A DNA stretch of 64,000 nucleotides from Diatrype stigma. Its lineage: Eukaryota; Ascomycota; Sordariomycetes; Xylariales; Diatrypaceae. This document shows, piece after piece, positions 5,856-34,882 of this stretch. The position numbers were made by a program, and so were the translations under genes. Position 1 is the stretch's first letter; the number at the start of each line of letters is the position of its first letter. The notes beneath the pieces were generated by a model. It worked only from the letters and a program-made list of their open reading frames with translations, was not told the DNA's origin and searched no databases. The DNA is taken from assembly GCA_022225965.2 (NCBI GenBank), contig JAKJXP020000040.1, forward strand, positions 1-64,000, given 5' to 3'.

Positions 5856-6629
5856 AAATCGTCCTTAATTATCGTAAGATTTTCCCTTCCAAATAAGCGC
5901 CGACGATTCTATTTTAAAAGCCGCTTATTGGCGTATTAAAAGCTTCTTACGGAATATTCGTTCTTTACGTAAGTTAGGAATAAATTAGTGCCGTTATATT
6001 TATTTTGTAGCTATATTTTTCCCGGGCTTCGTAAATAATAAATATTTTTTTAATAGCAATTAATAATGGCCCAAGGTTTATCGTAATACGGTTCGTACTT
6101 TTTTTTGCATTAATATATGCGAAAAACTTAATCGCCGGAGGCGTAAATACGGATAAAGCCTTTTTTTTTTTAAAGGTACGCTTTTATTTAATTTCGCAAA
6201 ATTTTTATATTATTGAATCGTAATTTGGCTAACGGTGCTTTATGCTGTTCTATTAATCGGCGTTCGTTTTCGATTTTTTCCTTTTTTATCGATTTACGAA
6301 CGTATTCGGAATATTCGGTTCGGGATTGTTTTTAGAAAAATTGAATGCCGTATAATAAAAAAAAAGAACTATAATTATTCGGCTTAAATATTCGATTATA
6401 TATCGTTATAATACGCTAAAGTAATTTATTAAGGTTTTTCGGCGTTAAATTTATTATATACTCTTAAAGCATAATGTATTTTAGGTTTTAATTGATTTTC
6501 TTAACCTTATCGTTATTTTTGGGTTTTGCGGATATAACTGGTTTTATTTTTATATTATACGTTTTATTTTATTTAATGGCGGCTTTATTTACGAAAACCT
6601 TTTCGTTATTACTGATTTATTTTTTTGAA

Positions 6630-6760
6630 TAACCGAAGGTAATTCCGATTTCATTAAATATAGGAATGGTATTAACGAATTAAATAATTGGTATAACTTT
6701 GGCTTTAACCCATTTTATTACGTACTTAACGGCAACGAAAATATATAATTTATTTATTGC
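6630..6760 (-). pseudogene. Gypsy integrase remnant
   Basis: The minus-strand translation contains IFVAVKYVIKWVKAKVIP, which resembles the conserved 'VAVDY.TKWVEA' core of Ty3/gypsy integrases. Stops lie on both sides and no open frame survives. It is the most downstream coding trace before the 3' LTR, as expected for this family. Confidence 0.6.
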
Positions 6761-7726
6761 CGTATAATTAATCGCTTATCGTATAAAAGGAACGGAAAAT
6801 TATATGGAATTTAAATCGGGCAAAAAAGGATCCGGCTTTTTTATTAATTAATAATTCGGACATTTAATCGTAATTTATTATGTTATAAATACGATTTTTA
6901 GGTACCAAAATTGCTTTTGGATTTCCCGGAATATAATTCCGATTATATAATATCCCTTTTCGTAATGGATTTTCTTTAATTGCATTAAAAGATTATCATA
7001 TTTCAAAACTTTTTATAAAGTTTGTACGTTTATTGCGGTGCCTTTAGGATATAAAGGATTATCCGGAACTTTTTCGTATATTACCGCCTTATATAACTTA
7101 TTTCGAAAAAAAAAAAAGTGCTTATTAATAAAACTCGGTAAGATAGTAAGAAATAAGGCTGTTTCGAAACGTAGGAACTTAAAAATGGCTTAAAAGTTAA
7201 TTCGGATTAATTAATCGGGTTTTCGGATAGGTTCGATTTCGTTAAGAAATAACTTATCGAAAGGCATTAACGTTTCGGTTTATTTCGGAAATTTAAATAA
7301 GTAATCCGCGAAAACGTTAGCTTTTCTTAATTTATAATAAATACGAATGCTATAATATTTAATGGCATTTAAAAATTTAACGATCCGAACGGGTTATTCG
7401 GTTTTCGTATTAAGGGTTTTTAGGAATTCGTAATCCGTAATTACCGTAATTTCGTTTTTTTCCATTTAATGCCGCTAATGCTGAAATGCCAATATAATTC
7501 CTAAGAATTTTCGTTTTTATATAAAGTATCGTAATTATGTATTAATTAATTTTTTCGAAAAATAAGCAATAAGATAAAAAGCGGTATTGCCGTTTATATA
7601 TATATAAGGTTGCAATAAAACGGCGCCGACGTCGTTTTACGAAGCGTCGGTTTCAATTACGAAGGGCTTTTTCCAATCGAACGTACGTATTATTGGAGTT
7701 ATGGTAATTTTTTTACGAATTTCCTT

Positions 7727-8011
7727 TTAAGTTGCTATAGCTTTCGGGAATAAAATTACGCGTTTATTTTTCGGGCCTTTTGTTAATGCTATTAAAGGAA
7801 TTGCAAGGTAAAAATAATAACTAATAAAGTAGCGAAAATAACCAGTAGCGTTTACGAAATTACGCATTTGCGTTATAATTTCGAATTTAAGTCGATTCCG
7901 AATAATAATAACCTTAACAAAATTAGCTTCGATTTCGTTTTCGGAAATTAAAAATCCCAAAAAAATTCCTTTACGAATAAATATTAAAAACTTAGTTATA
8001 TTAATAACCAT
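7727..8011 (-). pseudogene. Gypsy reverse transcriptase / RNase H junction remnant
   Basis: A 94-codon open stretch on the minus strand contains IFLGFLISENEIEANFVKV, then TGYFRYFI and LIALTKG. These match the Ty3/gypsy RT thumb and connection ('HLGF.IS..GI..DP.KV', 'G..NFYR.FI', 'PL..LTK'). The surrounding DNA is closed by stops and unusually rich in A, N, K, I and F codons, which fits RIP decay. It is not an independent gene. Confidence 0.8.
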
Positions 8012-8999
8012 GCCGAAACTTAAAAGCCTTTTAAGAAATAAAATTATTCGTTCGTAAAATTGCTTTTAAATGTTTATTTATACGGCCATATTATCGAATA
8101 TGCCCGAAATAAACTTTCGAAAAAGCTCGAGGATTTTTTTTTATTAACGCTTAAAACGTTACTAGGGCATTATAAAAACCGAAAAGCATAATTATCCATT
8201 CGTATAATCCGAATGGAATTACGAAAGCCGTTTTTTTAATGTTTGGTTTATATATTTTAATTTACTAAAAGCTATTTTTAAAATCGATAAAATAATATTA
8301 TCGATAACTTATTATGCATTATATTTTATTTATCGCATTAAGCAAAAAATATACGTTTTTTTTGTTTGGCATTAAATTCGTAATAATCGCAGTAAAATCG
8401 CCATATAATAAATAAGTTATATTTATTAAGCTTCGTCGTTTAACCGGGGGCTTTTTTCGGAATTAATAATGCAGGAAAACCCTAAAGACTTATATCTTTA
8501 CGAATTATGGCATTCAAATATGCCTTAACGAAATCCTTTATTGCCTTTATTTAAATTGAATTATATCTTTACGGAAAAAGTTTAATAAGGCGGCTATTTC
8601 TTATATCGATATAATGGCGCGTTTTTATATTCGCTATAACCTTTTTCGGGGCGAAGCCGAATATTTTGGGGAATTAATCGAGATAATTATTAAAGAAAGC
8701 TTCGATTTCGTTATTTAAGGGTATATTCTTATATTATTTCGGCTTTTGCTGTTCCTTAATGGAATAAATAAATTCCGTTATATAATTAATTTTTGGAAAA
8801 GTTATTAAACGAATTATAGGCTTTTTTTCGAATGCGTTAAGTGTTATTGTTTCGTTTTCTTTTATGTTATTATAATGTATTCCGAATTTATAAAATACGT
8901 TTTTATTAAGTATAAGGTTTTTAAGAAAAGTTCCGTTAGGAATTACTTCCGTTAATACCGTAAATTAAAACGTATTGCCCCTTAGCATTAAGAAATTCG

Positions 9000-9146
9000 C
9001 GATTATTAGGGCATCCTATTGGATTTTCGGCCCGGTGCCCCTAATACCCTTTATTGTAAAGGGTTTCGGAATCTTATACGTTTGGCCTTTAGCTGCCATA
9101 GTCTCGGTAATATATGAGGCAGTGCAACCGTAATTTAAAAAGATTG
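9000..9146 (-). pseudogene. Gypsy retropepsin remnant, interrupted by the copia insertion
   Basis: Minus-strand reading gives LNYGCTASYITE, a decayed form of the retropepsin active-site loop (D-S/T-G). The upstream half of the same frame, NYGHKF, lies on the far side of the copia element at about 16200-16225. The insertion fell a few codons before the active-site triplet. Confidence 0.6.
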
Positions 9147-9151
9147 CGAAT

Positions 9152-9305
9152 TGTTAAATATAAACGTAGGTTATAAGATATATTGTATTAGGTTATTTAG
9201 TATAATAGGAGTATATTTTATAAGCAGATAAGGGCATTCCATATATATAGCCATAGGTATGGATCGTTCCTAGCTATTTGGATTTCCAGCTATCGTATTT
9301 TAATA
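9152..9305 (-). repeat. Copia LTR (3' LTR in element orientation)
   Basis: 154 bp on the plus strand from TGTTAAATATAAAC to TTTTAATA. It is a direct repeat of 16045-16198 and is preceded by CGAAT (9147-9151). Confidence 0.92.
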
Positions 9306-11160
9306 TTTCTATTCGAACCATACGTGGTTATAATTCGAGGTTATTATTAAGTTAGCCTGCTTTGTTAAAGTCCTAAAATTTAAGTTTAATATAACCTTTA
9401 AAGCGGGGGTCGTTAGAGCCTTAATAGTTACTGTTTTTTAGGCTAATCTATTCTTATATTTTGCGTAATGAAAGTATTAAATATTCGTCTTTTTTATTAT
9501 TCGAATCGTCGGTATTGTATTAGATTTCGGCTTTCGATATGTGTCGTTTGTTGCGAAGGTATTCGACGAAGGAACGTTGTTTTCCGAATAGTACATTTTT
9601 TTATTGTTTAGCTTTAGCAATATGTAATACCGGATTACAATCCTAAATTAAAATTCGTTTTTTGCGAGAATTATTAATGATGGCTATAACGAAAACATGT
9701 TACTTTCGTATTTTCCATTAGTCGCTAACTAGGGGTCCGTTAGGCGTGTTAAATAATTTTATCCAGGTTTTTTTGCCGTATTTCGGAAATGGTCCGGCGA
9801 AGTTTTCGAAGGTATTACGAGCGCTGGCGTTAGGCATATATTGTTGCCAATTAATCTTATTTTATTCGTTATGGAAGAAAATGGCTTTATAATGGACGTA
9901 AAGGCCTTTATCGTTAATTATTAAATTACGGAATTATTATAAAAAGGCTTTTAAATTTGCTCCTAATGTATTAGGATTTAATGGAAATATGCCGAATGCC
10001 GTAAGTAATGCTATGGGTGCTATTATAATATATATGAATTAATAGAAAGAAAAAAGGCCCGAAAGAAAAGGTAATTAATTAGGTGCATATATATAAGTAT
10101 TAGGGTTGCATTTTTTATTTCCACTTGGGGCAGGAATATGCCTTATTTGATTGGATTAGTTCTATAGATCCTTTAGAAAAAATAACAAACATATTAATAA
10201 AGATTTATAAAAAATAATATTATCGTAAAGCTGGTATAACGTATAATAAGGAATAAATAAAAAAGGGAATATTAATAAGGTTATTAATGTAAATGTTAAA
10301 AATAAAGGTAATATTTTAATAATGAAATGCCTTTATAAGACCCAGTTTTATTTTTTCCATTTATTTTATAGCAGGATATTTAGGGCTTTTTTAAAAGTAA
10401 CGAATTTATTTTTGGGCAAAAGCTTTGTTAGGCCATTAGCGATTTAATTAAAGATATAAATATACCGAAGATCGACTTTATTATTCGCTTGCTTTTTACG
10501 GTTAAAGTGGTATTATATTTCGATATACTTGGTACGGGCGTAAAATTAAGGATTTTTTATTAATGCAAGCGCTTTTTAATTATTCCCATATATTACCGTA
10601 ATAGTTATTTCGTTTTTAACGGCGTTAAGTTTCTTTAATAGTTGCCGTAATTAAATCGTTTCCTTTATTGCCTGCGTTTAATTCATATATTTAGCTTTAT
10701 AGGATAATAGGGCCACCGTTTGTTGCCTTTTTAAAAACCAGTTAATGGCGCCGCTGCCGATATTAAAAATATAGCCAGCCGTTAAGCGTTAAGATTATAT
10801 GCAACCGGCCTAATCGGAATTAATATATTTAGTTAAATCTTATAGCTTATTTTGGTATATCAGTTTATAATCGAATATACCTTTGAGGTATCGTAATATA
10901 CGTTTAACGGCAACGAGATAAGCGATGGTGGGATTTTTTATGTAGCGGCTAAAATAAGAAACGGCATAAGCGATATCCGGGCGAATACCCATTATGGTAT
11001 ATATTAGGCAACCTATAGCTTTGGCATATTATTAAACGTTTGCCTTAATGGCTTCGAAATTATTAAACGGCTCGTCGATTTTTGAAATTACCATGGGTAT
11101 AACATAGGATATTGCATCTTATTATTTTAATTCCTTAATAATCTTTTCGAGATAAACTTT

Positions 11161-11358
11161 TTAATTAAGGTAAATCTTTTTATTGGTACGATTGCGAATA
11201 ATATTTATGTTTAAATAATAATTATAAGGTCCAAAATTAAACATTTTAAACCTATTAAATAAGGCTTTTTTTAGTTTAGCAATTTTATTTTTATTAAGGC
11301 CAATAATTAAAAAATCGTTTACGTAAACTGCTATATAAAGATGCCCCTTTAAGAACAT
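11161..11358 (-). pseudogene. Copia reverse transcriptase remnant
   Basis: A 65-codon open stretch on the minus strand reads HLYIAVYVNDFLIIGLNKNK and then FKMFNFGPYNYYLNINI. It matches the Ty1/copia RT catalytic region (YVDDLLI.G, then FKM.DLG...YYLG). The catalytic YVDD reads YVND here, a D-to-N change expected from a RIP G-to-A transition, so it would be inactive even if expressed. Confidence 0.85.
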
Positions 11359-14300
11359 CCCTATATTAAAGTTTAACGGATTAAATTTTAGTTTTTTAAA
11401 AAAGGTGGCTAATATTTGATACCATATTCGTAAAACTTGCTTTAAACCATAAAGCGCCTTATTTAATTTATAAACCTTTATTATGCCGTCGTTAAATTCC
11501 GGTAATTATTTAACGTAAATTTCTTTAATAATAGGCCCGTATAAAAATGCCGTTTTAACGTTTATTTGCTCCAGTTTTAAATCCAATGTTACGGCGAAAG
11601 CGAAAATCGCTTTGTAGCTTATAGGTTTAATTATTAAAACGAAAGTATTTATATAGTTTAAGCCTTTAATTTATTCGAAGCTACGGATAACTTATTATGT
11701 TTTATATTAGGTAATTTTACCGTTAAAACCTTTTTTTAGCTTATAAATCCATTTGCTAAATAAAGCCTTTCGTTTAATAAGCAATTCGTAAAGCGTTTAG
11801 GTCTTATTATTTATTAACGACTAATATTTGTTACCCATAGCTTTGTATTATTTAAGCCATTATACGTTTCGTTTTATATGTTAATAATTACAAGACTCGA
11901 TTGTTATAGCTATTAGTATTATTCCTAAAATGGCTATGGCTAAATGAAACGCCGAAATGGCCTTTAATTAAAAACGATTAATTTAACTGTATTTAATGCA
12001 TAAACAAAGATTATAACCGTAAGGAACTTTTAATAATGGATTGCTTTTATAATATATATTATTCTTTATATATTTAATAAATAAAGCTATAACGTTAATT
12101 GGATTACGTAAGTTATTATTAAGCTAAGTTAAAACGTTAAGGTTACGTAGGATTTCACGAAACTAAGTTAAGTTATTATCGACGTCTTATGGTTTTTTAT
12201 CGGGATTAACTTAAAAGGATAAGCCTATATCGAATTGCTTAGCGGTCCGGTTTCGGATAATTACAGGATAAATATCGGATAAGCTGTTGTTTTTTTCGGT
12301 AATGGCCGGCGGTAATTCGAAACTTAATCGTTTGTTTTTTTGTTTGTTGCTTTAATGAATTGGTTTCGAGGTTAATGCTATAATAAATAAAACAATAAAT
12401 ATGTTTTAAAGCTTAGCTATAAATAAATTAGGTATAATTAGTTTTTTTCTTTTATAGCCTCGGCATTGCGAATAAACGAAGTAATTTTTTTTAAACATTA
12501 TATTATTGGCGTATTTTATTTTATTAGTATTTCGTCGAAGGATAATGTAATTCGTTATTTTATCGCCGCTATATCTTAATATCTAACAGGCTGTACCGAT
12601 AAATTTAAGAATATTCGCCTTTTTATTGAGCTTATATATGCCGGATATTTCCAAATAAACCAGGTAATATAAATTAAGCTTATTATTATATTAAGCTTCG
12701 TAAAAAATAATTTCGAAGGCAAAATATGGATTTTTATTCTTAAAATAAAATGCTGCCTTAATAATAAATGACCAATAATATTTTAATATTCCGTTTTTAA
12801 TGGCTATTTTTATGGTAAACCTAATGTATTTTTTAAGATAACTTATGGTATTTTCGATAATTCCATTTTATTCGTATTAGTTAGTAGCAAAGTAACGAAT
12901 AGCTATGCTCTTTATCGTACAATATTCGTAAAATTCGTCGTTGCGATATTGCTTAAGCTTATTTATCGTTACGTAATAATAACGTCGTTTAGGCCTTTTC
13001 TAATATGCCAGGAATTTTTTAAAAGCTTCGAATTATTTTTTTGGCTATTTAATAGGAATAATCCAACTTATTTGCGAATAGTCGTATATTATGGCTAACC
13101 ATTCCATAGCGTTGCCGTAATTAATAATGCTTTTAGGTATGCTTATTTCGTCGAGATATAAGGATTTTAGGTAATATGTATCCTTTTTTAAGTTACCTTT
13201 ATATGGTTTTTTCCGTTATCGATTTTTAACGTAATTATTATAAAAGTGGTAATATTTTATTGGTTTTATGCTATTAAACATAATTATTAATTTGTAAATA
13301 TTTTATTCGTTAAGGTATTTTAATTGCTTATACTAAATTATTATATTTGGGTTTATAATAAAATAGGAATAAAAAGCCATATTAAGGCCAATTATATTAA
13401 TAATATTACCGGATTAATCGATTACGTATAGGCTTAATAATATTATCGCGGTTAAGAAAATATGTTTTCCCTTAATACCGAAAGCGGCGTTAATACGAAA
13501 TAAAAATTCCGTACTTTTTTTGGTAAACTGAATAACTAAAATGAAATTTGCTTTTAGCCCCGGGCAATAAATCGCATCCTAAATTTGAATACGTTTTGTT
13601 TTGCCATTAATTAGGGTATGAAAAACGATAATGCCTTTTTTTTTAGATATTAAAACCTTGCTTTTAATGCCGTAAATCTATGGACCTTTATAAAGCCGAA
13701 GCTTATTAAATAATTCGCATTTATAATAAAAGGTTTAACTATAGCCATTATTTAAAACCAGTATTTTTTAAAGCTTCTTTATTAATTCGATGGCCTTGTT
13801 TTAAAATAAAGACATAAGGCTTAATTTTACCAATCGTTATTTTGTTCCGGAAATGTTCGGAATTCCGTTAATGAAGTATTTAAAGTTCGGTATTAGTTCC
13901 GCGGATTGCTTATTAAGCCGTACCCGGGTAATTATAGGGTTAATTCCGGATAAAAGGCCTTTAAAAATGCGTAATAAGATATTAAGTTATGCTGTTATTA
14001 ATAGTAGCTTTGCGGTATCGTTTCTTGCCGCTAAAAAGGTATTAACGGTAGTTTCGGCATTATTATTATTAATAACTCCATATATTAGCTTGGCAAAAAC
14101 GGCTATAACATTATTGGTTTTTTATTTTTTCGATTAAGCTTTGTTATTTTGCTAATAAAAAAAGGCCTTATCCGGATGTTTTTAAAAGCATTCGTTAAGG
14201 GAATAATTTGTTATCCTACGTTTTGCAGTTTTGCAATAAATACATTAAGCGCTATCGAATGCCTTACGTTTGCTTTTGTTTTCTTGATTTTTATTATTAA

Positions 14301-16027
14301 AACGATGGGTTTAAAAAAATCCGGTTTGCATTCCATTATTATTTCGAATCCGTATGTTTTATTTCTTTTAAAGGGTTAGTTATAAAGTTTTTTCGAAAGT
14401 TGCGGCAGCCTTAATAATTTTATCGTTTTTTCGTTCGGATATAATGCTATAAAACTGGTAAAAAGTAATAAAGAAAATGGCATAATTCGGGCCGAATACG
14501 AAAAGGAACTTATTAATAAAATGTAAAATGAAGATAATGCAATTTTCGTTAAATTCGATAAAGTTCGCCTTAATTTGACGTAATTTAATTATTAAGGTAA
14601 TTACGTTATTTTTTATAATTAAGGTAATATTTTCCTATTGATATAAAAGCTATTAGAAAACGGCATTACCTTTGGGTCGATATTGTTTTGCAAGATATTT
14701 CCAAATAATAACCAAGGTATTTAGTTTTTTATCGCTGTTAATTTCGGACCGAAGGTTTTTTTTAAGCCTATATCGGATATAGCCGAATGCCTTAATCTGT
14801 TTATTCTTTCAGATTTTTTTTTCCTTAACCTTTTTAAATTTATTTAGGTCCGTAACGTCGGAACCTTTCGCTTCGTTTTCTTTCGGTAATAAGCGGCCGT
14901 ATTCTTGGATATAAAAATAATCCATTATTTCCCGTTTAAAGCTAATTTATTTCGAAAGGGACTCGAGCTTTATTATGTTATCGAATAAGCTAGTTTTCGT
15001 TTCGGTCGACATTATAGGCTTGGATTTAAACTTAAGCTTAAATTTTGGTTTGGTATTTGCGTATTTTTCCAAGTTTCATTACAGGTCCTATATTGAAACG
15101 AAGTTTAGCGGGTAATCCAAAAAAAAGCGTATAGCCGTAAGTGGATTCGTTAAATAAGCTGGAAGGAATAAAAGCGTTAAAAACTGGATTTAATTTAAGG
15201 ATAAAACAAAATAAAGGCGAAGGTATTCGTATGGAGTTCGGAATGAATATGGATATGTATTTAGGTATGGATTCGGGTAAAATTGCTTCGAGTTCGAATA
15301 AATTAACCTCGTTTAAATCGTAGAATAAAAAGATAATAAATACGTTATTAAGACTTAATAACGAAAGGGAACGGCCGAATAATTCGGGTATATAATCTGG
15401 ATTCTCGTCGTCGTCGTTTATGAAATGTATAGTTATAAGTTATAAAAATGTTTGGGCAAAATGAGGGAAATTTCGTTCGTTAAGAAATCTAAAGAACTAA
15501 GGTTTTGCTACGGGGCGAATTTTTAGGTTATATTTTTGTTTTTTATTTATATTGTCGTTTGGTAAATTCATTATAATTTGTTATTATTTTATTCGTTGCC
15601 TTAATAACGAATAAAGGTAAGAATAAAGCGAATAAATTCGTATTTTCGTTTTATTGCTTTTAAATAAAATAATTTCGATAAGTTCTTTAATTCCGACGTT
15701 ATTGTTTAAGATAAAAAAGTAATGGTAATAATATGGTATATGCTTAATGGATTTTATAGTAAGATTTTGATTTAAGTGGGATAATTTATTATTACCGTAC
15801 GAATAGGATTTTTAAGGTAAGTACGGATAAAATATGAATAACGGCGTTTCCGATGAATACAATGTATATTCGTAAGATGCCGTATATTATTTAATTTTTA
15901 ATTAGGTTACGTTGGGAATTTTTCGTTTATAGCAAAAGACGTAATAAGTCGGTTTATTAACGTTTATATAATGTGAGCAAATTTTAAATAAATAAGTAAG
16001 TTTATAATAAGGAATCCCTTATAAGCT

Positions 16028-16044
16028 TTGCCGGGCTTATAACC
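16028..16044 (-). other. Copia primer-binding site, half-tRNA(iMet) type
   Basis: The minus strand directly downstream of the right LTR reads GGTTATAAGCCCGGC. Apart from one G-to-A difference this is complementary to the anticodon arm of eukaryotic initiator tRNA-Met (GGGCTCATAACC). It fits priming by an internally cut tRNA(iMet), as known for Drosophila copia. Confidence 0.65.
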
Positions 16045-16198
16045 TATTAAATATAAACATAGGTTATGAGGTATATTGTATTAGGTTATTTAATATAGTA
16101 GGAATATATTTTATAGGCAGGTAAGGGCATTTCATATATATAGCCACAGGTGTGGGTCGTTTCCAGCCACTTGGATTTCCAGCCACCGTATTCCAATA
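16045..16198 (-). repeat. Copia LTR (5' LTR in element orientation)
   Basis: 154-bp partner of 9152-9305. Its first two bases are TA where the other copy has TG, a RIP-type change. It is followed by the target duplication CGAAT at 16199-16203. Confidence 0.92.
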
Positions 16199-18115
16199 CG
16201 AATTTATGTCCGTAGTTCGTAATAGCTACGAATAGGTTGTGGTCTTTATCGTAACCTTCGCGAAGTGACTTATTTCTGCTTGGTGGTGGTTTTTTGCTAT
16301 TGTGTATTTCTACCGTATATACTTGGCGCTTTTAATTTTTATTTTCCATTTTTATCGATTTAATGAAATCGGCGAATTCTTAATTAAGATCGCAGTTAGG
16401 ATTTTCGAGCCTGTTCGCCGGATTTTTTTCGTCGCCGCTGCTTTTATCGTTATTGGTTATAAAATGGACTTTGGTTCATTCTTTATTTTTGTCCTTTTAG
16501 TTTTTCATTGCGAAACGAAGTTTGATATATCGAAGGCTGCTATTATTATCGTTATATAGCAGGCCCTTAAACGTTATTTTTTTTTCAGAAAATAATTAAA
16601 TGGTTTTAAAAAAGCGAGGTTTTTGTTTATAATCTTTTATCCAGTAACTTTATTTTCCGTAATTAAAATACTTATTATTTGCAGCCTTAGTTACGTAATT
16701 TTGTTTATTCGTTTTGTAAACGTTACGGTTTTCGTTACGAAAATCGGCGATAATATCGTTTTTGTCCGCCATTGAAATTATAAATGTGGCGTCGGTCGGT
16801 TCGATTTATGCGATACCGGGCTTGGTTAGGGTAGCCTTAAAGATCGACAGATCGTAAAACGGTGCCGACGACCCATAAAGCTTAATTAAAATCGACGGTA
16901 TATTATAAATTTTTTTTTCGACCGCTTGGCGTATAATGTATACGGCCCGTTATATAATCTTTTCAATAAATTGGGCATTATTTTATGGGCGGAATTAATT
17001 ATAAACCGTAATCCAAATATTCGGTAAGTTGGTTTATAAAAGATTTACGATAATTTTTTTGATCTAATAATAATCGCGATTTTCCTAATTTATTCGGTAA
17101 AATATTTTTTTTATTTGCCGGATGTAATTTATTATATTTTCATTTTGGTACGGAAAAAACGTAACGAATTAAGTAATGGTATTTTTTAAAATGTAATGCT
17201 TATTGAAAATTTAAAAAACCGCTTTTAAAAAGGTTACTTAATCGGAATTACGATTATATACGAAGATTTCGATTTGCTTGAAATTATTCGAGCATTTTAA
17301 GGCAATTCGTTTAAATTACAGCTTATATGAAACGAAGGCCGATATAGATTTGATTTGGATTTTTTGCAGCTTATCGAAAATGTTTGGAACTGCTTATATA
17401 AAACGGAGGTTAATAAGGAAAATAACGCGATTTTTAATTTCGCAATATGTAAAATCTTTATTTTGGTTTTAAAGGATTGTTTCGGATCAGATTATTCGGA
17501 TCCGTTTCTTTTAAATTATACGATATTCGTATTATTTCGTTAAAAGTCGTTAAAGATTTAATTTTCCATTAATACGCTTGTTATATTCGATAAATGTTTT
17601 CGTTATATAAAATAAGAAATAAATAGGCTCGTTCTTATCGGAATTAACTTCTTTAGCTTTAATAGGGCCCTTATTTTTATCCGTATTTGCTGCGGTATTT
17701 TTGGAAATGCTTTAGGCAAAAAAGTTTTTAGGTAGGTTTTATACGTTTCCTATAATAAGGTTTATAATTGCTTTTAACAGTTCGTTTCGAAAATTATTGA
17801 TATTTTTATTAACGTCGTTCATTTTATTCTTTAAGTAATTCGCGAATTTATTAAGGCGATGGTTAATCTTTTTAATCGTAACTTCTTAGGCCTCCAGGTA
17901 ATTAATTTTAATTGGGCTAATTTGGCTTATTAATGGGGCAATAAAAGGACCGGCAATTAAATTGCCGGTTATTTCGCCTTCGGATAACATTGCGAGCTTT
18001 GCTTAGTAAAATGCAAAAAATAAGAAATGAAATAATGAAATAATAAAGTAATAAAGTAATAAAAAGAAAGTTATTATTTTTAATTAAATGATATAAATCT
18101 GCAAAAATAATTATT

Positions 18116-26052: not shown

Positions 26053-26058
26053 TTAGCT
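26053..26058. repeat. Target site duplication TTAGCT, left copy
   Basis: Identical to 34877-34882. Both copies sit directly outside the matching inverted ends of the 8.8-kb element. Confidence 0.85.
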
Positions 26059-26079
26059 CTTATCTCAGAAACAGACGTT
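26059..26079 (+). repeat. Left terminal inverted repeat of the 8.8-kb element
   Basis: CTTATCTCAGA is exact against the other end; after a 2-3 base mismatch CAGAC is shared again. It abuts the left TTAGCT. Confidence 0.82.
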
Positions 26080-26791
26080 TTTCTGGGCCAGCTGCGCTGC
26101 GCGCAGCCCCACATCATTTGACCAATGATTCTGCTAGTAGACTTTAGCGGTAATTTTAGTGTGATTTAGACCATCCCGAGCATTTCCCGTATGTACTAGG
26201 GTACGTACCTGCAAAGTGGCCCAGAAAAGACGTCTGAGACGGCGATCCGAAAAAGGGCTGCACTACGCTGAAAATTTGGTGTGAGCGGAATTTTCCCTTC
26301 TGTTCACTACACCATTTCTCAGCCACAACAGGTCGTATAAAGAATCCAAGTAGAGCCCGAGGGTCACAGCTCATACGGCTTTCTAACGAACCTACTTTGA
26401 TATTTTTACGCCTAGTATGTTGTAGATTCGTATCTGGGAAACGGACAAGGGCACCTACGCTGAAACTTTTCTCGCCAGCGACCCCCCATGAGCTTTCAGC
26501 AAAAAAAATCCTATCCAATTGAAACTTCGAGGATATATACTTAAGGTCATTCTCTAGCGACGGAGACCATTTGAGAGATAACAGGAATTCGTTTTTGTGG
26601 GCGTTTTTGGCAGTCCCTGTAAGTGGCCGATTTGCTGTTGCTCGGAGACCATTCAGGGCTTTGGTGTAACTTGCTAATACGATTTTTCAATTAGGACGAT
26701 CACTGAGAGCTTTGCGATCTCATCTTCAGAGTGCAAGTCGCATCCCAATACGTTGAGTCTCCGATTTCTGAGAAAATCGAGAAGCAACACC

Positions 26792-29132
26792 ATGTCGTCG
26801 CCTTCCAGCAGCCATGATCCGGCCCCAAACTTGGCCTGGGTCAAGCAAAATGAACTCCTGGGCTCTCCAACGAGAGAGCAAGTCCGTACTGTGATTGACA
26901 GACTCAGTGAAAGCCAGAGTTCCGCGGGCGAGGCTGGGAAGATCTTTCTAGAGCGTTGCAAGTGGATCGTCGAGCATACGGCGGACCGAGTCAACACCCA
27001 GCAGGTCTTCATTGCCAGTGTTATTCGAACGATTACCGGTGCGGAAGAGGCTAGAGATGGTCAGGTTGAGGCTGTTCGACGATTGGTATACCTCAAGAGC
27101 GATACTGTTCTCATCGCTGCTACCGGTTATGGCAAGAGTGCCGTATTGCAAGCCTTCACAGCCATTACTGGGCTGATTACTATCCAAATCGTCCCGTTGA
27201 CGAAGCTGGGCGAGACTCAGGTTGATTCTATCAAGAAGGAAGTTCCGGGATCTACTCCTGTATTCGTTGATTCAGATACGTTTCTCAAGGTCAGTCATGA
27301 AGCGTAATATGTCGATATTCCGAGCTAACCTTGAGTAGGACCGCTCTATTTGGGAGGACATCCAGAACGCGAAATATTCCCACGTACTCCTGAGCCCCGA
27401 GCAGCTTCTTCATCCAAGATTCAAGGCGGTCTTGAGAAGTCCCGGATTCCATGAATCTGTCGGCCTGTTTGCAATCGACGAGCTCCACGTCGTAGGAGAA
27501 TGGCGTACCTTTCGTGAAGACTTCACCTATCTACACACCGCACGATCTCTCCTTCCAAGAAGCCTTCCTTAGTTTGGTTGTACAGCTACTTTGGATCGAG
27601 ATAATCAGGAGTATATCCTTCAACACGCCGGGTTTGGTGCGGACGTAAACATCATCCGTACTTCCGTTGACCGACCCGAGATTTCCCTGGTGGTTCAACC
27701 TCTTCTTCGAGGATCTATCAGGGACTATAGACGACTGGAATTCCTCTTCGAAGACGCGAGCCCTCAAGCTACACGAGCCATTCCGAAGACAGTTATCTAT
27801 GTAGATAGCAAGCCCCAGTTGCTCGCGGTTCGTTTTCATCTCATTAATCACCTGGTATCAAAGTATGGATTCTCCAAACCTGCTGCTCGGGAAGTCATTA
27901 TGAGATACGACGCAGACGTTCGTCCGGTCGATAAAGACCGAATCTTCGACCAGTTCTCTCAAGAGAACAGTGCCGGCAGGGTTATGCTTGCTACGATTTC
28001 TTTCGGAATGGGCCTCAACATTCCTGATATTCGAAGAATCGTCCAGTTCAACCTGCCCCCGAATACGAGCCTTTCGGATATCTGGCAACGCGTTGGACGT
28101 GCAATGAGGAAGCAGACAGGCCAAGGAATTGCGTATATCTTTGCTCCGTATTGGGCGTTCGATAATCTGGGCACTTCAGAGAGCGTACCGAAGACTCCTC
28201 GTCCTAAGCCTCGCCGTCGTCAGACACAAGCTCAACTAGTACAAGCTCGACTGGCACACGTTCCTCGAATCAGTAGTGGTTTACGTGAGATGACGTTGGC
28301 CGAGAGGGATGGCGACGATGATGCAGCCAGTCAAGCAAGCGATGTCAGCCAGGCTGATAGCCTGGCTTCTCACGATTCTGCGGCAGAGCAACGTGACGAT
28401 CCACGCCTCACTCTTTCCGAGGCTTCGCAGAACCTATTCGAGATCGATAACAAGGTGAAATGGTCGAAGCAAGACGAAGCCAACAGATCAAAGCTGAGCC
28501 CAGCCGTTTCTGCGTTCCTCAACTCAAGCTGCTTCAGAAAGTCGATCCTTGAGTACCTTCAAGAACCTGTTGATGATCCCGACCTCGAATATAAACGACC
28601 GGTCGAGACAATCCACTGTTGCAATGCTTGTAACAACGATCTCGGTAGAATTCCGTCTCTCGAGCCTCGAACTAAAGCCTCTTCGAATAAGCCGCAAGCT
28701 GGTTCGTTCTCCGGCGTCGCTCTGGTGCTTTTGTCGATCTAGTGCAAAGATCAAGCCCAGAGTCTCGCTCCTAATGTCCGACACGACCTTATAGGGGAAC
28801 TCTTTCTAGATTCGAAACTCCAGTATGCCATCGCCAAGCAGTTTTCTTCGAGAAAACAGTATTTGCCGTTCTCTAACGTCAACGGCCTTGTTGAAAAGGT
28901 GCCCGAGTTATCTACCTGGGAATATCTCGATGAGCATGGCCCCGCCCTAGTAAATTTCTGCATCCAGTCGACTCTCACCGTTCGACAACGCTGGGAAGCC
29001 AAAAAGGAAGAGATGAGACAGAAGCGAGAGGCGAGAAAGCAAGCTGCTTCTTCTTCTTCTTTGGTTCCGGCAAGCCGTAGAGCTACAAGTGAAGACGCAT
29101 CGCCTTCTGCTACCCGAATCCGCCAGGCTTGA
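26792..29132 (+). pseudogene. RecQ-like SF2 helicase of the mobile element, with two in-frame TAG codons
   Basis: Exons 26792-27289 and 27339-29132 give a frame of about 763 codons. Helicase motifs appear in order: Walker A TGYGKS (residues 111-116), DELH box (213-216) followed by VVGEW as in RecQ proteins, motif III-like FGCTATLD, motif V-like ATISFGMGLNIPDI and motif VI QRVGRAMRKQTGQ. A cysteine cluster HCCNACNN lies after the core, and a basic, Q/S-rich C-terminus follows. Two TAG codons interrupt the frame at 27570-27572 (codon 244, just before motif III) and 28740-28742 (codon 634). The sequence on both sides stays in frame and similar in character. Both TAGs could have arisen from CAG or TGG by RIP-type transitions. 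RecQ enzymes unwind DNA 3'-5'; here a role in moving the element is only inferred. The real start is the ATG at 26792. Confidence 0.82.
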
Positions 29133-29316
29133 TGATAACCTAGGGGTTAGTATAAGGAATCAACGATTGCTAAGGAAGATCAACCGATGAGGAAGATCGA
29201 CGGTTTGGTAAGGAAGATCAACGGTTAGTTAACGAATGGTATCGATGTCACGTATTATATGAGTTTTGCACGTGAATGAGGCTCTTTTGATGACGTCACG
29301 CCAACCCCTCCCCTAT

Positions 29317-29565
29317 TCAATTCTCATTGCAGCCAAAGAAAGAATCTAGGTTGTTCAAAACGTAAGCAACAGCATCGCCCTCCTCTTCCTCTCCCTCGTC
29401 GTCTTCATCTCCCAAAGCAAATTCAGCAAAAGCACGCGGGCGTGTAATATCGCCGCCGCTCTCCTCCCCCTTTTCCCCCTCCTCCCCCTTCTCCCCCTCC
29501 TCGACGATCTCGACGCCCTGATCATCATCGTCGTCATCATCATCATCTTCGTCGTCATCGTTGTT

Positions 29566-29596
<31 letters not shown>

Positions 29597-30462
29597 TTGT
29601 TGTTGTCGTCATCATCATCGTTATCGTCGTCGTCGTCGTTGTCCCCCTCGTGCTCTTGAACCCTCCGTAGTATATGGAGGCTCAAGAGCAGGGACTCCTC
29701 CAGCTCAGCGCGGGTCTCCTTATCGTAGGCCCTATACTCTGTCCACATGCCTACCCCTATATGTTAGCACTGTTTTTGCCCATACCGGTACATATTACAA
29801 GAGTCACGTACTTGTGGGAGTCTTCAAGTCAATAGCGACTTGAGACAGAAACTTACGTGGCTCATGAGCTATCGAGGCGTTAGTAAGTAATCAACGACAC
29901 TTCAGATAATTACTAACCGCAGCACTTCTTTTCTTGGCTGTTATATAAACAGCCAGCACAAGCCTGTCCAGCCACCCCAACACAAACGTCCCACAAATTT
30001 CGACTATCTCGGCAGCGAGTACAGGGCTGCCGAGCAGGGCCCGAAACTTGCAGCAACGCTGCCTTGAGGTTACGATTACGGCCAGCAGCACCAGAGGGGA
30101 GATTAAAGTCCCCCCGTCTGGAACTGCCGGCCTTATACTGCAAAGGTCTTTGGACCGGGAGGTCCAGCAAAGGGGCAAGCGAGGGGGCAGTTGGCCGGGT
30201 GGTCTGGCGGCGGCGGACGACCTCGTAAGCTGCCCGGACAGCTTCCTATGCTGTCTCGGGGGCTATATACCACTAGTTAGATATATCATATTCAGGCAAA
30301 TCTGGGTGGCTTTAACTATATACCTTGGGGCTTCGGTATAGCGCCCGACCTCTTCAGCTTTTTGGCCGGGGGCGGCGAGGGCGAGGGCGAAGGCGATGGC
30401 GACGGCGACGACGACGGAATCTCATACGGGTCTCGAGAACCCAGGGGGCGAGCAGCAGACAT
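29317..30462 (-). pseudogene. DUF3716-like cysteine protein with acidic tail, one in-frame TAG
   Basis: Probable exons: 30462-30324, 30262-29918, 29868-29857 and about 29752-29317. Exon 1 encodes a serine/proline repeat (SPSPSPSPSPSPPP) and a basic nuclear-signal-like stretch AKKLKR. Exon 2 carries the cysteine pattern PCTRC, CVG, CAGC and KKCC that marks the fungal DUF3716 domain, possibly zinc-binding. The last exon begins MWTEYRAYDKETRAELEESL and then becomes runs of D, N and S from triplet microsatellites before an acidic end. A TAG at 30248-30246 interrupts exon 2 upstream of the domain, consistent with a CAG-to-TAG change. Exon 3 is only 12 nt, so the model is tentative. The function of DUF3716 is unknown; the cysteine pattern suggests nucleic-acid or protein binding. 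It lies between the convergent helicase and DUF6589 genes. Confidence 0.65.
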
Positions 30463-30620
30463 GATGATGATAATGATAATGATGATGATGATGATGGTGT
30501 TGTTGTTGTTGTTGTTGTTGTTACTGCTGCTGCTGTTTCTGTTGCTGTTATTGTTGCTGCTGCTGCTGTTATTATTGCTGCTACTGCTTTTGCTACTGTT
30601 GCTGCTGCTGCTGCTATTAT
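30463..30620. repeat. Triplet microsatellite block (GAT, GTT, CTG type)
   Basis: Consecutive runs of ATG/GAT, GTT and CTG-like triplets directly upstream of the DUF3716 start. Similar triplets encode its D/N/S tail at 29510-29640. The long leucine or valine runs they would encode on the plus strand are not credible proteins. Confidence 0.85.
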
Positions 30621-30660
30621 TAAATAAATCCAGAATAAATTTGCTGGCTGTATTTTATAT

Positions 30661-31660
30661 TAGTGTGTTATAACACACCGAATCGTAAATTTAAAATAAA
30701 ATTACTAGTTATATTTTACGTTAATATATTATAATATATTAATATAAATGGATTTATTAATTATTTATTAATTATATATTTTCTTAAAATTTAAATTATA
30801 ATATAATTATTAATATAATTAAATATAATATATTTATTTATTTCATGTTATATAATATTATTATATTTATGTATATATATATTATTTTTATTATATATTA
30901 ATATATTATAACATTTTAATACGAAATATAACTAGTAAATTTACTTATATTAATGTATTATAACACACTAATACGAAATATAAGCAACAGATTTACTCTG
31001 GATTTACTTATATCAGTGTGTTATAACACACTAATACGAAATACAGGCAGCAGATTTACTTTGGATTTACTTATATCAGTGTGTTATAACACACTGATAC
31101 GAAATACAGGCAGCAGATTTACTTTGGATTTACTTATATCAGTGTGTTATAACACACTGATACGAAATACAAGCAGCAGATTTACTTTGAATTTACTTAT
31201 ATCAGTGTGTTATAACACACTAATACGAAATACAGGCAGTAGATTTACTCTGGATTTACTTATATTAGTGTGTTATAACACACTGGCATGAAATATAACC
31301 AGCAAATTTACCTATATCAGTGTGTTATAACACACTGGCATAAAATATAGCCAGCAGATTTACTTATATTGGTGTATTATAACACACTAATACGAAATAT
31401 AAGTGGCAGATATATTTATATCGGTGTGTTATAACACACTGGCATAAAATCCAGTTAGTAAATATATTTATATTGGTATGTTATAACACACTGGCAAAAA
31501 ATCCAGTTAGTAGATATATTTATATCGGTGTGTTATAACACACTGGCATAAAATCCAGTTAGTAGATATATTTATATCGGTATGTTATAACACACTAATA
31601 CGAAATACAAGCGGCAGATATATTTATATCGGTGTGTTATAACACACTGGTACGAAACTA
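30661..31660. repeat. Satellite of about 13-15 palindromic units
   Basis: Each unit contains the palindrome TGTGTTATAACACA. In the best copies, such as 31074-31099, the perfect palindrome extends to 26 bp. Spacing is about 63 bp from 30.95 to 31.27 kb and about 51 bp afterwards, as a short block is missing. The stretch 30680-30950 is a very AT-rich, decayed part. The array lies between the DUF3716 and DUF6589 genes in the middle of the mobile element. The 63-bp period keeps one frame open, giving a repeated 21-residue peptide that I do not regard as a gene. Confidence 0.9.
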
Positions 31661-31810
31661 CAGCATAATATATGCACATTCGGCTAATATAAAGGCAAAT
31701 GGGTATCTGGTTAACCTAACTAGCTAACTTGCTATTATCACTAATGCCTATAACGCCTGCTAGCCTTTTCCGAGCAACCTTATCGTAAGTCGTTAATCAT
31801 GATTCGTTGA

Positions 31811-34548
31811 TCAAGCAGAAGAAAGATCCCCTAGTCCGTGAGACCAGAAATCCTCAGCCTCAGCTTCATCAGCTGCATCGAATAGGCGTTCACCCTCATC
31901 ACCCCAATCGATGATATCATCGTCAGTTCCTCCCGCTGCGTTGACTCCAGGAATAGCACGTTGATCAGCCGCGTCAACAGGCTCAGGTATAGCATCGTTG
32001 AAGTCGGCAAGCTTCTGGAGCAGAAGCTGTTGACCGCGTTCGAAGATGTCAGGGGCATCGTAGGCATCGTTATGGATGTTCTGGCCTACCTGCGTAACAC
32101 CATCTTTATACAGCTTGCAGGCATACGACATGATATCGGTAAAGGCATCACCGGGTTTGTGTGTACCCTTGCTATAGGTTGCGCTGAGGGTACGCTCAAC
32201 GGACTTGCGGATGGTGGCGAGATAATTACCATTCAAGGCCAGACGAGAGAACGTTGATCTGAGATCATGAGTAGAGTTCTTGTTGTGCTTGATATCGATG
32301 GCGTAGACGGCGTTGATATGCTCAAGCATTAGGTCGATGGCTTTGTATTTGCTTCCGGCCGTGATACAACGAATCAATCCTCCTTTGAGAATGGCATCAC
32401 GAGTGGCTCCATCGTGGCAGACGTCGGGATGCAGAAGCCAAGCGAAATACAGCATCTCCGGGCCGTAATTGAATGATCTTCCTCCCCAGAATATAATAGG
32501 TAGCTGAGGAATGATGTCGCGAAGCAATCCAAAGTCTCCCTGACGAACGGCTTCGTGGATCGTTAGGAATATTTCGACACACTGCATTAACCGGCATTGA
32601 CTGCGGAACTCGAGATCGATATGATCGTCATCAACACCGGGATACCTGCCAGTCCAGCCCTCCTTCGTGAAAACCTTCGACCAGGTCTCTTCAAGGATGA
32701 CATCAAGGAAGCCTTCATGAGTGATGATAGCTTCCTTGATGCCTTCGATGGTAATCTGGTCCTCAGCAAGGACGCCTCGGATACGCAGACCGTGAATCAC
32801 GAACGCAAGGATTCTGGCAGTGAATCCATGAACTAGAAGGGGAACGGTTTGATGGTATTTGAGATCCTTCTTGTTGATATGTCTTCCTCGCTGAAAGAAA
32901 TCGACATCCGCCTTGATGACAGCGCTGCTTTTCTCCTTTCCTGCATCCCAGAAATTACGGAATAGCATCTCGATATAATTGAGTTCGACGTGAAAGAAGG
33001 CGGGAATGGGAAGCATCCATTTCTTCTGCTCCCAAAGATCACTGGCTTCTAGTTGAGACTGTTTGATACGGCGGATAAAAGAGGTCGTTTTCTGGTCGCC
33101 ATATATCACTGTAACATAGAATAATTAGTAAATAATCGCTGAGTGATAAATGAACACAACTTACAGGTCAATCGATCGTCGAACTCTTTGAACTCGAGCC
33201 GGCGCTTCCAAAGTTCTTCGTGGAGCTTGTAGACACCTTCAACTGTTCCCTCATCCTCGAAGATGGCGCCAAGCTGAAGATAAGGGCTCTCTTTGTAGTT
33301 GACGCATTGAACGGCGGGGAACTTGGGAAGCTTATCCTTCTCGTCAGGGTAGATCAACTTCATGATCGAGAACTTGACAAGATACTTGGATACCTTGTCA
33401 AGAGACGGGGGACGAGGAAGTAGATACTTCAGAATCATGCTGCGAGTGAAGGGCTGCTTAAGATTCAAGGATCTCTGAGAAAGGGGACCTTGGAGTTCGG
33501 GGCAGCTGACCAGACAAGAAGTCGTAAGGTTGATCATCTGTGCTTGTTTGCCCCCTACAAGCTCTCGTACCTTGTTCAAGAAGTTGAAGTTGTCGTAAAC
33601 GATCACGCCGGTAGGATCGTGGGCCACACGCTTGATATTCTTTTCAGCTTGCTTGGCCATCTCGGAGAGCTTATTGTTCAGGGTAGTGTATGAGAACACA
33701 ATACCCAAGCCAGATAGTGTATCAATAACACGACGAGGAGTGCCGTTGGCGAGCATATAGAGGCCCAAGACCATACGCAAAAATCTACTGGTGTTTCTTG
33801 CATAGCCACGAAGAAGGAGTGCAGCAAGCAGGTAAATATAACCCTTATCACCCTCGTTGCTGGTCATCTCGACAACGTCCTTGTAGGAATCGTCTTGGTT
33901 GCGTAGCAGTTGAGTGAGAAAGGTTACCATCGTAGGAGCTTTCTCCTTGAGTGTTGGCCAGCCCTGTTCAAGAGTCTTTTGCAACCATTCCGTACTGCAT
34001 ACCTTTGCGATGGTAATATCCTCATCCGAAAGATCCTTGTGAGGCTCGAAATCGCCAAACGGTGGCTCTCTAATAAGAGATTGCATCTCGCGGCGAACAG
34101 TACGAGTACTGAAAGATCCAGGGATTGGTTTGGCGTCTGGATCAGTACTGATAACAGCCAAGCCTTGAGTTGCGAGTGCTTCCTGAATCTCTGGAAGCGA
34201 AAGGGCATCTGCTAACTGCTTTCTGCGGGTAGAGTTCTCGACCCATCTGCTAAGGAACGCCTTGAGGTTGTATTGCTTAGCTTCATCGCCTTGCTGAATC
34301 GCATACCGGTTGGCATCGCGTAGATTCTTCCATAAGTTGGTTGTTTTCGGCACGATCTCTTCGGGGTAAGCCTCAGAAAGGTCAGACTGATCGTCATCCA
34401 AGCCCTCAAGTTCGTCAGGACTGACTTCCTGACGAGATGCTTGAGATTCGGACTGCTGCTGCGATCGTTGCTGACTTGGAATTTCAGAGAGTTCCGAACT
34501 CAGCACGTCAGTGGGCGGATCAGTGAGATCTACGTCTGACGACTCCAT
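31811..34548 (-). CDS. DUF6589 domain protein of the mobile element, candidate transposase
   Basis: Two exons (34548-33165 and 33108-31811, 56-bp GT-AG intron) give 893 residues with no internal stop. The N-terminus is disordered, with Q/S-rich and acidic runs. The middle and C-terminal parts resemble the fungal DUF6589 family: a hydrophobic strand ending in a conserved-looking aspartate (GVIVYDNFNFLNKVREL, residues about 315-330), then FFHVELNYIEMLFRNFWDAG near the start of exon 2 and FWGGRSFNYGPEMLYFAWLL. The end is acidic. The family has no assigned function. The strand-Asp pattern could belong to an RNase H-like fold, which is inference. It is the only gene in the 8.8-kb element without a stop in its frame. 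Its start lies 328 bp inside the right end and it converges on the helicase. The start is the first ATG, since an upstream TTG is unlikely. Confidence refers to the family call; the transposase role is much less certain. Confidence 0.85.
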
Positions 34549-34855
34549 GATGCGTTTCTTGAGTGTTTCTGGCCGCAAAAAGAAGAGGATTAGACGAGTA
34601 GATAAAGGAGGTCTTCAGAAGTTAAACGAGGGAATTCGCGGGTCAAACCGGCCAGATTTGGTTGAGATAATCCAACCTTGATAAAAAACACTGTTGTTTT
34701 TCCGCGTAGGTCACGACTCCTATCGGATCGCCGTCTCAGACCAGCTTTTCGAAAAACCCCACCACTTACAATCCTCTAATCCCATTGGTCAGAATTAAGC
34801 GTATGCGCTAGAAAGCGTTTTATGGGTCAAAGAGTACATTCAAAACTCGAAAAGC

Positions 34856-34876
34856 GGGTCTGAGCTCTGAGATAAG
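34856..34876 (-). repeat. Right terminal inverted repeat of the 8.8-kb element
   Basis: Read on the minus strand from 34876 it begins CTTATCTCAGA, identical to the left end, and then has CAGAC after three different bases. It abuts the right TTAGCT. Confidence 0.82.
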
Positions 34877-34882
34877 TTAGCT
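34877..34882. repeat. Target site duplication TTAGCT, right copy
   Basis: Matches 26053-26058 and lies immediately outside the right inverted end. Confidence 0.85.

Follow-up and report, generated by a model that had tools for sequence, protein, structure and literature searches.

A family of terminal-inverted-repeat transposons with DUF6589 and RecQ-like helicase genes and 6-bp target-site duplications in Diatrype stigma

The window (the whole 64,000-nucleotide stretch of Diatrype stigma DNA analysed here) contains an 8,818-base pair (bp) transposon at positions 26059-34876, with 11-bp inverted ends and a duplication of the sequence TTAGCT. From left to right, it carries a RecQ-like helicase gene on the forward strand, an acidic low-complexity frame and a DUF3716 stretch on the reverse strand, a tandem array, and a DUF6589 gene on the reverse strand (Table 1). 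The element is a member of a genuine transposon family that has moved recently. Elements of this kind are already known; what is unusual here is the 6-bp target-site duplication, as opposed to the 9-10 bp reported for helicase-bearing AcademH elements. We consider it likely that this is a family of terminal-inverted-repeat (TIR) DNA transposons in which DUF6589 acts as a DDD/E-type transposase and the RecQ-like helicase as an accessory.

Gene content and ends of the element

Table 1. Features of the transposon and its flanks, in window positions
Feature	Position	Strand	Basis
Left target-site duplication, TTAGCT	26053..26058	.	Exact repeat at 34877-34882
Left TIR, CTTATCTCAGA	26059..26069	+	Matches start within 3 bases of it at 16 genome places
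Left subterminal inverted repeat (arms 26072-26090 and 26217-26236)	26072..26236	.	Second arm and next bases (26217-26260) recur in miniature inverted-repeat transposable element (MITE)-like elements
RecQ-like superfamily 2 (SF2) helicase gene, one intron (27290-27338)	26792..29132	+	Profile of relatives against WRN and RecQ structures
Acidic low-complexity open frame, 143 amino acids (aa)	29317..29748	-	Open-frame scan
Open stretch with DUF3716 domain (domain 29922-30062)	29922..30227	-	33.5-35 bits (cut-off 22)
Tandem array of 52/63-bp units with repeated palindrome TGTTATAACA	30894..31657	.	Holds 11 of 12 exact window copies of the palindrome
DUF6589 gene, 893 aa, intron 33109-33164, open; putative DDD/E transposase	31811..34548	-	Pfam match; candidate residues D319, D466 and E724
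Right subterminal inverted repeat (arms 34735-34752 and 34847-34864)	34735..34864	.	Inverted-repeat arms
Right TIR, CTTATCTCAGA	34866..34876	-	Exact match in inverted orientation
Right target-site duplication, TTAGCT	34877..34882	.	Sequence match to left flank

Judged by sequence comparison, the identity of the helicase is secure. The open piece of the window gene matches RecQ helicases weakly (best match 3.2e-5). A profile built from 17 relatives finds WRN and RecQ structures (best match 4.8e-43). In the window copy, the gene is interrupted by an in-frame TAG codon in the helicase core and by another in the C-terminal part, and the corresponding GenBank protein (P0019) lacks the stretches around both stops. 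Predicted helicase proteins in other fungi (e.g. P0021 and P0029) are free of stops. Two weaker matches in the D. stigma genome, C191 and C38, are open frames without stops and are probably host helicases. No helicase relatives were found in viral and prokaryotic contigs, and no DUF6589 was found in viral contigs.

The DUF6589 domain is recognized on the spliced protein with 205 bits (cut-off 27), and this protein is identical to GenBank SLS62_005740. Only the window copy gives a stop-free DUF6589 match: the other nine DUF6589 loci of the genome contain stops. In a 26-sequence alignment, D319 and D466 are each kept in 22 of the 23 members with a letter at that position, and E724 in 15 of 16. 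Both aspartates follow hydrophobic stretches (VIVYDN and LIYGDQ), and an N is found three residues past the glutamate. This D/D/E set resembles that of a DDD/E transposase, from which we infer that DUF6589 is the best transposase candidate in the element. The 143-aa acidic frame may belong to the DUF3716 gene as one of its later exons. The sequence-only reading of this locus had listed a RecQ-type helicase, a DUF3716-like protein and a DUF6589 protein as cargo; all three are real, with the reservation that the window copy has a broken helicase gene.

Exact matches to CTTATCTCAGA in the window are limited to the two element ends, and the TTAGCT flanks are likewise exact, as had been read from the sequence. 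When one mismatch is allowed, 3 matches are found in the window against 1.08 expected, and at least 3 were found in 11 of 100 shuffles. Chance could account for the end match and the duplication in a single copy, which are not decisive alone; the genuineness of the element was settled by its other copies (discussed below). The left subterminal inverted repeat is a likely protein-binding site.

Copies of the family in the genome

A search with the left 442 bp of the element gave 25 genome matches, 16 of which (window included) begin at element base 1-3. The remaining nine are short and internal: eight lie in MITE-like elements and one inside the C19 copy. Both ends were checked in 25 copies (C57 and C62, in which contig ends fall inside or near the element, and C171 are outside this count). 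A 6-bp duplication was exact in 17, one transition off in 3 and unsupportive in 5; among the exact and one-transition cases are 11 of the 12 large copies and 8 of the 10 elements of MITE-like type. Among large copies, it is exact in eight (window, TTAGCT; C37, ACTTTA; C20, TACCTA; C66, TATGGA; C137, GGTGAA; C22, CTCGGG; C19, TGTCGG; C54, TTGCTT) and has a one-transition mismatch in three (C61a, C61b and C30). The right ends of C19, C54 and C30 were chosen partly by the duplication itself, with up to 2 mismatches allowed; those of the MITE-like elements were listed from terminal sequence alone. The duplication thus recurs with another sequence at each site, with 20 different 6-bp duplications across the copies. 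In a comparison of nine copies, true left and right flanks were at least 5/6 identical in 9 of 9 pairs, as compared to 0 of 72 crossed pairs. The spans of C137, C22 and C54 (approximately 18, 15 and 23.5 kb) presumably include nested insertions.

The copies C37 and C20 are nearly identical to the window copy over its full span, apart from repeat-induced point mutation (RIP). Over 8,679 aligned bases, C37 differs from the window copy by 1,883 C-to-T/G-to-A changes, 24 reverse transitions and 28 transversions; the corresponding numbers for C20 are 1,813, 32 and 16 over 8,562 aligned bases. As these differences are almost exclusively of the RIP type, the helicase, DUF3716 and DUF6589 regions have moved together recently. 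These whole-length copies, with 6-bp duplications at independent sites, bear out the earlier claim that the block was inserted as a single unit. C66, C61b and C61a are older, with 148, 162 and 147 transversions relative to the window copy, respectively. C61a (at about 109214-117772 of C61) is inserted in, and disrupts, a FAD-linked oxidase gene: when its flanks are rejoined with a single copy of the duplication, an open frame runs over the junction and aligns there without gaps to solved oxidases (best E 3.7e-15). A search with the flanks of the window copy for a paralogous empty site matched only the window's own flanks.

Elements without genes share these ends. Three copies of approximately 1.1 kb have the same termini (C34, with an exact duplication, C4 and C202), and no open frame longer than 89 aa was found in C34, the copy scanned. 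The subterminal inverted repeat is shared by a MITE-like set of 0.63-0.76 kb, as is the sequence TTATCTCAGAA(A/T)CAGACGT. A 24-base end pattern occurs exactly at 11 places in this set, and the reversed control pattern at none. Ten MITE-like elements were read, of which eight (C116, C70, C75, C73, C23, C21, C39 and C92) have an exact 6-bp duplication. Since copies with and without genes have 6-bp duplications, both appear to have been mobilized by the same machinery, with a 6-bp stagger. A TGGTGGCTAG-like array is seen in the left arm of most of the MITE-like elements inspected. A second subfamily has left ends GTTATC (C19 and C54) or TTTATC (C30) and right ends GATAAC, also with a 6-bp duplication; C19 and C30 are approximately 7.9 kb in length.

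DUF6589 and the helicase are closely paired. The Pfam search gave 12 PF20231 matches at 10 genome loci, each of which is also matched by the helicase query. Three further loci were found with the helicase query: C137 has DUF6589 DNA that was missed by the Pfam search, C57 is cut short by a contig end, and no DUF6589 was found in the stretch fetched for C46. The comparison of ends, run within this genome, showed that related copies share them, in keeping with the expectation that DUF6589-helicase pairs have ends in common. In other sources, too, DUF6589 and helicase proteins come from contigs of identical length: 645570 in Lasiosphaeria ovina, 14770 in Achaetomium macrosporum and 6123 in a JGI record. 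This suggests that the two genes lie side by side in these as well. Named protein-database matches to DUF6589 include Eremomyces, with no basidiomycete or animal among them; apart from Eremomyces, we take them to be Sordariomycetes.

Transposase candidate and relation to known elements

Most likely, DUF6589 moves the element by cut-and-paste or by a related type of DDD/E reaction, with the helicase as an accessory. In such a reaction, DUF6589 would be an RNase-H-like transposase. It would recognize the subterminal inverted repeats together with the ends, make its cuts there, and join the ends to the target at a stagger of 6 bp. The RecQ-like helicase would unwind strand-transfer intermediates or the ends. 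An accessory role, perhaps in DNA binding, may fall to the DUF3716 protein, which is small and cysteine-rich.

Several results do not confirm this assignment. AlphaFold models of DUF6589 are weak (mean predicted local distance difference test scores of 57 and 65 with 17 and 26 sequences, respectively), including at both aspartates. Foldseek and VIA-align searches with the 26-sequence model identified no relative, a negative that says little because the catalytic region is not confidently modelled. With respect to the duplication, the flanks of C4 (4/6), C202 (2/6) and the MITE-like C109 (2/6) give no support, and right ends were not identified in the large copy C46 or the MITE-like element in C22. 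In addition, profile searching of the PDB brought up nothing beyond chance-level matches to DUF6589.

Kolobok transposons duplicate TTAA, which is not seen here: 20 different 6-bp duplications are found instead. Starships have a DUF3435 tyrosine recombinase at one end, and no DUF3435 Pfam match was found in the five open frames scanned. Fungal KolobokH elements also carry a RecQ helicase in a DNA transposon (PMC9587614); in contrast, the helicase here is a separate gene on the strand opposite DUF6589, an arrangement described for one red-algal Kolobok (PMC9587614). Fungal IS3EU elements share the 6-bp duplication, but the fungal families described have TAYGG..CCRTA ends and TIRs longer than 30 bp (PMC12730594), as compared to the TTATCTCAGA ends and 11-bp CTTATCTCAGA of this family. 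Duplications of 6 bp are reported both for fungal IS3EU and for hAT6 (PMC12730594); the sequence-only reading had proposed that this length does not fit the common fungal superfamilies. Telomere-linked RecQ helicases of fungi resemble the family in placing a RecQ-like helicase in repeated DNA, but are subtelomeric as described; DDE motifs in one Colletotrichum family of these helicases have been ascribed to transposon insertion (PMC4522978, PMC4994206, PMC5576322).

The closest resemblance is to AcademH, a helicase-bearing DNA transposon lineage of Basidiomycota, Ascomycota and Mucoromycota with low copy number (PMC10799480). Like AcademH, the family described here consists of low-copy fungal DNA transposons with TIRs and a helicase beside the presumed transposase. 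Helicase-bearing elements have been published as AcademH (PMC10045372), KolobokH (PMC9587614) and fungal Academ copies with DEAD/recQ domains (PMC6416283), and so the overall plan is not new; the suggestion of the sequence-only reading that helicase-coupled mobility would be without precedent has to be withdrawn. Academ duplication length has been tied to the helicase or nuclease that is present, with 9 or 10 bp reported for AcademH, which carries a helicase, and 3 or 4 bp for AcademX (PMC10045372). We think that the element works like AcademH, of which it may well be a close relative. Since a 9-10 bp duplication was looked for and 6 bp was found, the element is not filed as a member. Among the papers listed in literature searches for helicase-bearing fungal TIR elements with 6-bp duplications, none could be matched to the DUF6589-helicase family.

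That this is an AcademH element proper, with an Academ-type transposase plus helicase and a 6-bp duplication that is variation within the lineage, seems to us an even call: the overall plan is the same as that of the fungal helicase-bearing lineage (PMC10799480) and of Academ copies with DEAD/recQ domains (PMC6416283), but 9 or 10 bp is reported for AcademH (PMC10045372) and 6 bp is found in 20 of 25 copies. Less probable, and in our view rather doubtful, is a separate superfamily of DDD/E transposases founded on DUF6589. Such a superfamily would have TTATCTCAGA ends, a 6-bp stagger that is fixed, MITE-like elements of its own that it mobilizes, a presence in several Sordariomycetes genera, and a RecQ-like helicase gained independently of Academ and Kolobok. 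The constancy of the 6-bp duplication and of the ends speaks for such a superfamily, as do the Pfam matches of 17 DUF6589 members, which include no named transposase family, and the lack of any mention of DUF6589 in the literature searched (a search that did not take in the main Academ paper). The missing Pfam transposase match is, however, also compatible with DUF6589 being the Academ transposase itself.

Readings in which DUF6589 is not the transposase fare worse. The element could be a non-autonomous passenger that depends on an unrelated transposase gene at another place in the genome, given that the window helicase is broken and that short copies move with the same ends. This is improbable: 15 of the 16 places with the 24-base end pattern are copies described above (C171 being left out), and the DUF6589 gene, which is open in the window while the other nine loci have stops, has conserved counterparts in other fungi. 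Least credible of all is a helicase-driven replicative element of the Helitron-like (peel-and-paste) type, with DUF6589 a mere accessory. A helicase is present at every DUF6589 locus found in this genome, and the C46 helicase locus has no DUF6589 in the stretch fetched, as such a model would have it. On the other hand, Helitrons are described as having neither TIRs nor target-site duplications (PMC4522978), whereas this family has inverted ends and a constant 6-bp duplication, and no HUH or Rep domain was found in the five open frames scanned.

Implications and additional observations

If DUF6589 is the transposase of this family, a Pfam domain of unknown function gains a concrete and testable role. 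The family also supplies the material for such tests: an open DUF6589 gene in the window, stop-free helicase relatives, and short elements with matching ends. Should DUF6589 prove separate from Academ and Kolobok, DNA transposons would have taken up RecQ-like helicases on more than two occasions, and the link suggested for Academ between duplication length and helicase or nuclease (PMC10045372) would not extend to this family. For annotation, genes of such transposons pass as host genes: the GenBank name of the transposon helicase (P0019) is that of subunit 4 of a general negative regulator of transcription, a transcriptional repressor.

Within the tandem array, 11 exact copies of the TGTTATAACA palindrome are spaced at 52, 63 or 104 bp (window 31019-31644). 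Degenerate forms of the palindrome are seen in AT-rich loci of other copies, where they may have arisen by chance. Rfam matches inside the element were all below cut-off, and all lie within the array. Elsewhere in the window, a block of approximately 12 kb (6001-18000) has a GC content of 0.27-0.31, as compared to 0.41-0.50 in the adjoining DNA, a composition of the kind that RIP-mutated repeats show.
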